64,000 bases of DNA. Origin: Oceanibaculum nanhaiense (GTDB taxonomy: Bacteria; Pseudomonadota; Alphaproteobacteria; Oceanibaculales; Oceanibaculaceae). The DNA lies in NCBI RefSeq assembly GCF_002148795.1, contig NZ_MPOB01000006.1:186001-250000 (forward strand). The letters run 5' to 3'. The position numbers and the translations under genes were made by a program. Positions 17,901 through 19,269 of this stretch are shown piece by piece (within the stretch, counting starts at the first letter, position 1; each line of letters opens with the position of its first letter). Under the pieces are notes generated by a model that did not search any database, was not told the DNA's origin, and saw only the letters and a list, made by a program, of their open reading frames with translations.

Positions 17901-18012
17901 GTCATCGCCCGTGAAGGCCCCGTAGAGGCCCATATAGGCAATGCCAAGTCTGTTGACGCGACCTCCCCTCAACCGCGTTACCGCGAAAGGGGGACGGCTA
18001 CTCCCCAATGAC
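17901..18012 (-). ncRNA. Probable yybP-ykoY manganese riboswitch aptamer
   Basis: Read on the minus strand, the leader contains GGGGAGTAGC (18006-17997), the hallmark 5' loop of this class, then CGCGTCAACAGACTTGG (17962-17946) as the second conserved internal loop. The ends close by pairing of GTCAT (18012-18008) with ATGAC (17905-17901). It sits in the 5' leader of a GDT1-family gene, the transporter family most often found behind this aptamer. It has not been checked with a covariance model, so the exact ends are approximate. Confidence 0.8.
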
Positions 18013-18116
18013 GGGGCGGACGGTAAAGAGGGGCGCGGAGCCTGTCAAGCGTGGGGAATTAAAGTTGGGACCGTGCGAGTCAAGCACAGAAGGCCGCAAC
18101 CGAGCCGAAAGTGTGA

Positions 18117-18138
18117 GTCTTTAGAATCACTTAGAGAC
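18117..18138. promoter_or_regulatory. Candidate operator upstream of the methyltransferase promoter
   Basis: GTCTTTA (18117-18123) and TAGAGAC (18132-18138) form a 7-bp inverted repeat (one G-T mismatch) with an 8-base spacer, ending two bases before the -35 box. Its position suits an activator or repressor of the methyltransferase gene, possibly the facing winged-helix protein. The region 17756-18175 otherwise contains only the riboswitch leader and this promoter. Confidence 0.35.
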
Positions 18139-18140
18139 AC

Positions 18141-18168
18141 TTGACTAAGCAACTGATTCTATTATACT
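18141..18168 (+). promoter_or_regulatory. Near-consensus sigma-70 promoter of the methyltransferase gene
   Basis: TTGACT (18141-18146), 16-base spacer, TATACT (18163-18168). Transcription would begin about 7 bases after the -10 box, at about 18175, which is the base before the ATG at 18176. The message would therefore be leaderless or nearly so. The stretch is AT-rich, unlike most promoters in this window. Confidence 0.65.
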
Positions 18169-18175
18169 TTTATGC

Positions 18176-18772
18176 ATGGACACGACATACAATCTCAATG
18201 GGGGCTATAAGCCCACACTCAAGCGGTTCGCTGATCTTGGTGGCCCGGATTTCTTTCCAACACCACGCTGGGCGACATACGCGTTAATTGATAATGAGAA
18301 ATTCAAAGGCGACATTTGGGAATGCGCATGTGGCGATGGCGCCATGTCATCTGTCTTGGAAGATACGGGGAATCCTGTAATCAGCACCGATCTTTACGAT
18401 AGAGGTTATGGCGAGTGTGGAGTTGACTTCTTGTCGCCAAAACGGCGTGCAGCAAACATCATTACCAATCCGCCATACAACGCTGCCGAAGGATTCGTGC
18501 GTTCAGGTCTAGCCGTAGCGGGACAGAAATTTGCCCTTCTATTGCGCTTAGCTTTTCTTGAAGGGGCAAACCGCCAACGCACCATCTTTTCAGAATCGCC
18601 ACCTTCCCGAGTTTGGGTGTTCAGTGAACGGATCACCTTTTATCCAGCGGGCGCGGAACGTAAAGGAAGCGGAACCACAGCTTACGCATGGTTTGTTTGG
18701 GACAAAAATGCCCCTAATGGCACCGAACTTCGTTGGTTCGCGCCGGGTTATAAGGCACGATATTCTGATTAA
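18176..18772 (+). CDS. Orphan DNA adenine methyltransferase-like protein (NPPY type)
   Basis: 198 residues. Motif I for S-adenosylmethionine is readable as WECACGDGAMSSVL, the acidic residue at the end of the next strand as STDLYDRG, and the catalytic motif IV as ITNPPYNAAEG, the N6-adenine/N4-cytosine signature. No separate target-recognition domain is obvious, which fits small phage- or prophage-borne enzymes. The codon usage and base composition are AT-richer than the neighbours, suggesting transfer. No restriction nuclease lies beside it; its only partner is a small convergent winged-helix gene overlapping its stop. Translation from 18176 is probably leaderless. The methylation site is unknown; it might also act on RNA or another substrate. 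Confidence 0.72.
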   Translation: MDTTYNLNGGYKPTLKRFADLGGPDFFPTPRWATYALIDNEKFKGDIWECACGDGAMSSVLEDTGNPVISTDLYDRGYGECGVDFLSPKRRAANIITNPPYNAAEGFVRSGLAVAGQKFALLLRLAFLEGANRQRTIFSESPPSRVWVFSERITFYPAGAERKGSGTTAYAWFVWDKNAPNGTELRWFAPGYKARYSD

Positions 18773-19086
18773 CTGCGTGACTTAAGATAGCGCCTTCCTT
18801 CGTCTGTAATGCGATAGCCAGATTTAGGAACGTGCTCCAGATAACCTTCACAAATATAGTTTCCTTGTGTCTGGTAATGTGATTTTATATTTCGGATCAG
18901 TTGCTCCCATATTTCTTCATTGGGTCGCGTGATCGATCTCTGCCTATCTTCATCAGATAGATTTATGTAATTTGGAACATCACGTTTCATGCGTGGAAAC
19001 GTAGCAACCCCATTTGGCTGACTTGCAGCGATTTGAAGAACTGCAAATGCTATTTCGTTTTCTGTAGCCCGGACACCTCTTGGCAT
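18769..19086 (-). CDS. Small winged-helix protein resembling the Mrr N-terminal domain
   Basis: 105 residues. The pattern ENEIAFAVLQIAAS...DEDRQR...IWEQLIRNIKSH...GYLEHVPKSGYRITDEGRRYL matches a winged helix of the kind found at the N-terminus of Mrr-type restriction enzymes, with the final GYRIT-x-x-GRRYL wing. No nuclease domain follows; the protein ends there. It could be a stand-alone DNA-binding regulator or antirestriction remnant. The start ATG at 19086 has a very strong GGGGAGGGGG. It is AT-rich like the facing methyltransferase, and the two stop codons overlap (convergent), so both probably arrived together. The family assignment is from pattern only. Confidence 0.6.
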   Translation of the reverse strand: MPRGVRATENEIAFAVLQIAASQPNGVATFPRMKRDVPNYINLSDEDRQRSITRPNEEIWEQLIRNIKSHYQTQGNYICEGYLEHVPKSGYRITDEGRRYLKSRS

Positions 19087-19220
19087 AACCCCCTCCCCAT
19101 TTATAGTTGAAATGGTATGAGGATATTCGCTTAACAGCGAGTCGTTTTTTGCAAATTTGGGCTAAGCAGCGTACAGAATTCAATCTTCCTTAACGTTCCA
19201 GGCAAGGCGCCGCCCCTGGA

Positions 19221-19241
19221 CCCCCGGGTCAAGCCCGGGGG
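19221..19241. repeat. REP-like palindrome
   Basis: CCCCCGGG, five-base loop TCAAG, CCCGGGGG: a perfect 8-bp GC stem flanked by CTGGA and TGACA. The extended sequence is a dispersed intergenic palindrome seen in many alphaproteobacterial genomes (recalled, not searched). It sits at the right-hand edge of the AT-rich island, before the SRPBCC gene. It lacks a T-tract, so it is not a classic terminator. Confidence 0.65.
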
Positions 19242-19269
19242 TGACAGTAGGTTTGTATTCAGCTCCAAG

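Follow-up and report, generated by a model that had tools for sequence, protein, structure and literature searches.

The window analysed here, a stretch of 64,000 nucleotides from Oceanibaculum nanhaiense, carries an inserted AT-rich cassette in which a small phage-type DNA adenine methyltransferase (MTase), preceded by a promoter loaded with GANTC sites, converges on a stand-alone winged-helix protein (wHTH). Both genes are conserved, and they recur as a pair in many other loci, in alphaproteobacteria and in their phages. Phage enzymes that mimic the specificity of CcrM are already known, and they raise the question of why phages and chromosomes keep them; the GANTC-loaded promoter and the wHTH partner point to control by the enzyme's own mark. 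Our main reading, to which we give about an even chance, is that the cassette is a mobile CcrM mimic expressed according to the GANTC methylation state of its own promoter, the wHTH being the probable reader or regulator. What is new here is a subfamily of phage-type, putatively CcrM-mimicking enzymes that combines a GANTC-loaded promoter with a dedicated convergent wHTH; a literature search of limited coverage found no description of the MTase and wHTH pair.

An AT-rich insertion with two convergent genes

An earlier note on this DNA had described an AT-rich mini-island, and the description was confirmed. The stretch from 18000 to 19249 has a GC content of 0.45–0.51 in 500-bp windows, versus 0.58–0.72 in the flanking windows, and it is an insertion, as both flanking genes are present, but not the ~1.14 kb between them, in each of the genus's other three genomes (3/3). 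Exact junctions were obtained by blastn from one of these genomes (G001), with homology ending at 18056 and restarting at 19193, and thus delimiting the inserted DNA listed in Table 1. The island is flanked by a gene for a GDT1-type transporter with a manganese riboswitch on one side and by an AHSA1-domain gene on the other, which are directly adjacent to each other in the three other members of the genus. Within the island, two open reading frames (18176–18772 on the plus strand and 18769–19086 on the minus strand) have 4 bp in common, in agreement with the convergent genes with overlapping stops reported earlier.

Flanking direct repeats and terminal inverted repeats were sought at the island ends and none was found, so that transposon-like ends were rejected; the sole inverted pair of note at the island lies inside the promoter (TAGAATCACTT/AACTGATTCTA). 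The REP-like palindrome at 19220–19245, previously taken as the right edge of the island, is also present in the empty site of G001; it is therefore a host element beside the island and was ruled out as its edge. The manganese (yybP-ykoY) riboswitch (Rfam RF00080, 17847–18018, minus strand, 45.1 bits with a cut-off of 45) precedes the GDT1-family cation antiporter gene, and the island was inserted just upstream of it.

Table 1. Features of the inserted cassette (positions in the window)
Feature	Position	Strand	Details and basis
Inserted AT-rich cassette	18057..19192	.	About 1136 bp; blastn versus empty sites of G001-G003, GC profile
GANTC site 1 (GAGTC), distal	18077..18081	.	Sequence; -99 from start codon
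GANTC-N4-GANTC pair (GAGTC TTTA GAATC), sites 2+3	18115..18128	+	-61/-52 (or -60/-51) pair recurs across loci
-35 element TTGACT of MTase promoter	18141..18146	+	Predicted
GANTC site 4 (GATTC), -35/-10 spacer; TGATTCT	18155..18159	.	Fits GcrA-type motif YGAKTCK
-10 element TATACT	18163..18168	+	Predicted
DNA adenine methyltransferase, phage-type, 198 aa	18176..18772	+	phrog_799 4.8e-58; 36.7% identity to phiLM21_p027
Catalytic motif IV, NPPY (residues 98-101)	18467..18478	+	NPP invariant in 19 aligned relatives
Stop-codon overlap TTAA, 4 bp	18769..18772	.	Both ORFs
Mrr_N-like winged-helix protein, 105 aa	18769..19086	-	Pfam Mrr_N 1.2e-5; AlphaFold2 model; winged-helix matches
Probable recognition helix of wHTH, residues 61-70 (Q62, R65, N66, S69, H70)	18877..18906	-	Helix 61-69 in model

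A phage-type methyltransferase with probable GANTC specificity

The MTase matches the profile phrog_799, annotated as 'DNA methyltransferase', over residues 23–194, and has no match in Pfam or NCBIfam and no significant match in PADLOC. Across 19 relatives the SAM-binding motif ACG.G and the NPP of motif IV are invariant, the fourth position of the latter being Y or F. The identification as a small DNA methyltransferase without a nuclease stands, on the phrog_799 match, the NPPY motif and the absence of an endonuclease from the island. The structural model of the enzyme is of middling quality (pLDDT 73.8) and its structure search matches many SAM methyltransferases; sequence searches against solved structures returned nothing close.

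The informative relative is phiLM21_p027, a 218-aa phage enzyme to which residues 25–193 of the MTase align with 36.7% identity, and which was tested and methylates GANTC (Decewicz et al. 2017, PMC5537653). According to the same report, GANTC is also methylated by three Paracoccus prophage enzymes of 179 aa and by two larger ones from Sinorhizobium prophages; like phiLM21_p027, these are said to have no sequence relationship with CcrM. From this relative and from the composition of the promoter in front of its gene, the MTase of the window probably has the CcrM-like specificity GANTC. It resembles the phiLM21_p027 type in being a small NPP[Y/F/W] enzyme of phage origin from the same bacterial class. 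Nevertheless, phiLM21_p027 sits in a co-directional gene run leading to a DnaB helicase gene, whereas the subfamily of the window is marked by a GANTC-loaded promoter of its own and by a convergent wHTH, and its neighbours are often non-phage genes. Unlike the cellular CcrM, the MTase contains no RAMA domain and matches no Pfam family; the CcrM-like gene of the host is a separate locus, with RAMA, beside an rnhB-like gene (the latter labelled by eye).

The methyltransferase and the wHTH recur as a convergent pair

Relatives of the MTase were collected from two sources, viral contigs (the best 80 of 93) and genomes of bacteria and archaea (282 confirmed matches, of which the best 80 were used); nearly all titles among the latter 80 were alphaproteobacterial. 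The window and the loci whose MTase shows at least 60% identity and starts by residue 12 were taken as 100 close loci, which were reduced to 93 non-redundant loci by leaving out near-identical promoters. A wHTH of the same family converges on the MTase in 89 of the 100 close loci, a slightly low count inasmuch as one locus (L025) ends at the MTase stop and the wHTH of another (L023) is a tblastn match without a called ORF. In the non-redundant set the pair is present in 82/93 loci and its stops lie no more than 20 bp apart in 73 of the 82; the four-base stop overlap is found in 36/89 pairs (35/82 when non-redundant).

The pairing separates this subfamily from its distant relatives. An even draw of 385 alphaproteobacterial genomes yielded five MTase matches at 365 bits or more and 20 at 172 bits or less, and the wHTH adjoined the MTase in 5/5 subfamily members (at least 365 bits, the genome of the window included) versus 0/20 distant relatives. 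No wHTH match was detected anywhere in the 20 genomes with a distant relative, and a weaker wHTH match without the MTase was present in two of the seven wHTH-positive genomes of the draw. The neighbourhood survey proposed in the earlier note was thus positive for the same convergent pair.

Estimates of dN/dS for the wHTH were 0.096 (window versus L092, from Nisaea nitritireducens) and 0.079 (L152 versus L153), and that for the MTase was 0.013 (L152 versus L153), synonymous change being saturated in the other MTase pairs tried. Judged from these ratios, the cassette is under selection. The earlier note had suggested a reduced restriction-modification relic, left behind after loss of the nuclease, a notion that draws on the MTase lying beside an Mrr_N-like domain without a nuclease. 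We rejected this explanation as extremely improbable: both genes are open and conserved, with estimable dN/dS values of 0.01–0.10, and the same nuclease-free two-gene form is kept in 89/100 loci. Moreover, the largest recurring neighbour family besides the wHTH within 6 kb of the 100 loci reaches 6 loci, and no widely recurring neighbour, including a linked restriction endonuclease, was found in that range.

The compact two-gene unit, with its overlapping 3' ends and patchy spread, could also recall an addiction or toxin-antitoxin-like pair, in which one product would be harmful, either through unscheduled GANTC methylation or as a DNA-binding toxin, and its restraint by the other would keep the cassette in the genome. 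In Caulobacter, constitutive CcrM is reported to disturb the cell cycle and to elicit a stress response (PMC3973325), in line with such harm. However, the gene order is convergent and not operonic, and 11 of the 93 non-redundant loci have an MTase without a detected wHTH (some of them because of a contig end or a wHTH that escaped detection), and we consider this explanation very unlikely.

The genomic settings of the cassette are mixed. Phage genes are neighbours in several loci, comprising terminase (L016, L027), portal (L011), tail (L017), head-tail adaptor (L022), primase (L019) and holin (L098) genes, and ordinary chromosomal genes flank other loci, that of the window included, an assignment made by eye on the sequences of the neighbours. 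These settings fit a phage cargo gene that also persists alone in chromosomes. One viral contig encodes a second DNA methyltransferase (L014:8083-9366; phrog_116, 6.9e-51) about 2.5 kb from the cassette.

The promoter of the methyltransferase gene is loaded with GANTC

Four GANTC sites (at 18077, 18115, 18124 and 18155) are located in the 100 bp that precede the MTase gene of the window. Across the 93 non-redundant loci, the 150 bp upstream of the MTase contain 229 GANTC sites, compared with 26.9 predicted by the GANTC rates of the individual loci and with 70.8 +/- 7.8 (maximum 95) in dinucleotide shuffles. Among the words of the form XY.ZW tested, GANTC was the most enriched (8.7x; the next reached 4.7x), and its central base was free (T84 G58 A50 C37), which fits recognition of GANTC as such. 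Distant relatives without a wHTH lacked this enrichment: 19 chromosomal loci had 0 GANTC (3.2 expected) and 30 viral loci had 13 (9.7 expected). Thus, the GANTC-loaded promoter and the wHTH partner are jointly conserved in the MTase subfamily and absent from its distant relatives.

The sites are arranged around predicted promoter elements in a recurrent manner. In a set of 63 promoters anchored on the GANTC of the -35/-10 spacer, of which a few (L017, L023, L113) are anchored on a GANTC other than the intended one, the commonest layout places a GANTC-N4-GANTC pair at -40/-31 relative to the spacer site (15/63, with 4 more at -39/-30), and a TTG occurs at -14 in 33/63. A consensus derived from 30 loci reads GA.TC.TttGAATCActTA...TTGacTAAcc.acTGATTCTG.TAta. 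The arrangement is not universal: nine of the 93 loci have no GANTC in the 150 bp upstream, another 120-bp window of the same locus is denser in GANTC in 34/93, and the spacer GANTC as defined is missing in 30/93, 23 of which have a wHTH. GANTC sites are also carried by the L199 promoter. In the common promoter type, a dyad CTTAG...CTAAG around the -35 element was recognised by eye. In the window, 7 bp separate the end of the -10 element from the start codon of the MTase (18163–18176), and a similar spacing recurs in loci with a spacer GANTC at -20; from this spacing the MTase mRNA is predicted to be leaderless, with transcription starting at or beside the ATG.

The full three-site arrangement has a single occurrence in the host genome, at the island, which argues for a private promoter and not a regulon. 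In viral contigs the short pattern TTGNNTAA-N5-TGATTCTGNTA, a loose one, identified 38 stretches, 5 of them with an MTase just downstream. The partial correlation of promoter similarity was higher with the similarity of the MTase (r 0.44) than with that of the wHTH (r 0.14), which weakens the case for the wHTH as the promoter-binding factor; support was accordingly insufficient to take the wHTH as a proven operator-binding repressor.

GcrA and the host CcrM

A phage-type cargo gene wired into its host would offer another explanation for the promoter, namely that its GANTC sites serve CcrM and GcrA, that the MTase is activated by GcrA and timed by the cell cycle, and that the wHTH is unrelated. 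GcrA reads methylated GANTC at promoters (PMC3667746, PMC7987155); it is reported to bind methylated GANTC promoters, several of which are lowered by 60–80% by GANTC mutations (PMC3667746), and YGAKTCK is described as a GcrA-type motif (PMC7987155). The spacer GANTC matches this motif in 44/63 anchored promoters, that of the window (TGATTCT) among them, and in another genome (G007) about 250 bp separate a distant MTase relative from a gene of the GcrA family. Nevertheless, 19 of the 63 spacer sites deviate from YGAKTCK, the tight pairing with the wHTH is left unexplained, and GcrA was not detected in any of the four genomes of the window's genus, either with the profile PF07750 or with a protein query (best E 0.07). 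The same profile detected GcrA in 10/21 genomes overall and in the Caulobacter control. We therefore regard wiring of the MTase to the host through GcrA as unlikely. In other hosts the promoter may be used by GcrA, which is unlikely to be needed for it in this one. The G007 locus (contig 7, 464736–465877), with its distant MTase relative near a GcrA-family gene, is possibly another writer-reader pairing.

A winged-helix protein as candidate reader of methylated GANTC

The wHTH is a single-domain protein without a nuclease domain, whose nearest family is the N-terminal domain of E. coli Mrr. Its match to Pfam Mrr_N (PF14338) reaches 25.7 bits, under the curated cut-off of 29.5, and the best relative tested (L092) reached 27.1 bits. 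A winged-helix fold is predicted by the AlphaFold2 model (pLDDT 94.1), which matches MarR/PadR and other winged helices with Z scores up to 8.0, all of them generic and none specific; the best Foldseek E value was 0.04, and DpnI and HhiV4I were not among the structure matches listed. Regarding the earlier description of an Mrr DNA-recognition domain without its nuclease, the absence of the nuclease and, in the model, the winged-helix fold are upheld, and the Mrr_N label itself is weak.

Residues 54, 62, 66 and 70 of the wHTH, which include Q62, N66 and H70 of the probable recognition helix, are identical in 99–100% of the 82 loci. With a mean column identity of 38% in the family alignment, this near-invariance suggests that the helix keeps a constant DNA target. 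Winged-helix domains of DpnI, HhiV4I and other enzymes are reported to sense m6A (PMC11037411), and E. coli Mrr is reported to be triggered by M.HhaII, which produces G6mANTC (PMC12707154). Because its fold class includes m6A readers and Mrr is triggered by G6mANTC, the wHTH is a reader candidate and, by analogy with these enzymes, it is a probable reader or regulator of m6A-GANTC. It shares with EcoKMrr, DpnI and HhiV4I the winged helix, of a class that reads m6A in those enzymes, and is Mrr_N-like; in contrast to them, it stands alone at about 105 aa without a nuclease, and adjoins a writer in 5/5 subfamily loci.

The resemblance to an Mrr DNA-binding domain that lacks its nuclease could alternatively serve counter-restriction. 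The MTase would then protect against GANTC-cutting enzymes and the wHTH would shield m6A-GANTC from Mrr-like type IV enzymes by competition, the GANTC-richness of the promoter merely keeping expression low once the DNA is methylated. The triggering of Mrr by G6mANTC methylation (PMC12707154) and the location of some loci in phages or prophages, with terminase, portal, tail and holin neighbours, are consistent with such a role. However, CcrM is reported to commonly methylate GANTC already in alphaproteobacterial hosts (PMC5537653), so that GANTC-cutting or GANTC-triggered restriction should be rare there; in addition, many loci lie among unrelated genes and PADLOC gave no match of weight. Counter-restriction, to which the antirestriction module of the earlier note corresponds, thus appears quite unlikely.

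Proposed mechanism and comparison with known systems

Returning to the reading of a methylation-gated CcrM mimic, we propose that the cassette spreads horizontally, as a 'moron' in phages and as a solo insertion in chromosomes. The MTase would be driven by its own sigma-70-type promoter with built-in GANTC sites, usually a GANTC-N4-GANTC pair upstream of the -35 element and one site in the -35/-10 spacer. Methylation of these sites, by the MTase and by the host CcrM, would set the output of the MTase and so feed back on its own expression; such methylation-dependent transcription is what we infer from the composition of the promoter. The feedback could take either of two forms. Silencing of the fully methylated promoter would allow a burst of expression on entering a new cell or after replication, followed by shut-off, and activation of the methylated promoter would create a self-reinforcing state. 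The wHTH may bind methylated or unmethylated GANTC at the promoter and thereby act as the cassette's own reader or regulator, a role suggested by analogy with m6A-sensing winged helices. Points against this reading are the identity of no more than about 37% to the GANTC-tested relative, the loci that depart from the promoter layout, and the occurrence of the wHTH without this MTase in a viral contig, in two genomes and at the end of a DinD-like protein.

Among the interpretations listed in the earlier note, the relic was not borne out, and the best fit is the epigenetic switch, given a promoter crowded with the likely target site of the MTase; methylation-driven switching is the putative consequence of this arrangement. 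A broader and more tentative interpretation, which we hold to be possible but doubtful, is that of a self-contained mobile writer-reader circuit, which would pack the CcrM/GcrA logic into one 1.1-kb cassette, would sense GANTC methylation at a private promoter and would equip hosts across Alphaproteobacteria, among them some in which GcrA is not detected, with a second GANTC programme under independent control. Such a cassette would resemble the host CcrM and GcrA in its probable GANTC target, in the GANTC sites of the regulated promoter and in the logic of a writer plus a reader; it would differ in its candidate reader, a winged helix whose gene belongs to the cassette itself.

Some MTases of restriction-modification systems self-regulate by methylating their own promoters. 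The cassette is similar to these in that the probable target sites of its MTase lie inside its own promoter, and dissimilar in that no restriction enzyme is linked to it. If the proposed mechanism is true, the cassette would be a natural and compact model for transferable epigenetic circuits, and the wHTH would be a candidate for a new class of m6A readers acting on transcription instead of DNA cutting.

Variants and relatives of the wHTH

In six loci (L021, L097, L108, L117, L128 and L148) the wHTH encoded downstream of the MTase is a variant of 220–250 aa with an extra N-terminal part, for which no Pfam family was found in the four that were scanned; the usual spacer GANTC is missing in all six. 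Relatives of the wHTH also occur in other contexts. A 69-kb viral contig (L009:4914-5330) contains one without the MTase, between a nuclease-like gene that immediately precedes it and a helicase-like gene (both labelled by eye). In a plasmid of Agrobacterium pusense (pC; L262:2432-2788) a relative is located one gene away from a large annotated DNA methyltransferase gene, in divergent orientation. Finally, a wHTH-like domain, 32% identical, forms the C-terminal end of the DinD (DNA-damage-inducible) protein encoded in Zymomonas pZM36 (L091:5001-5297).
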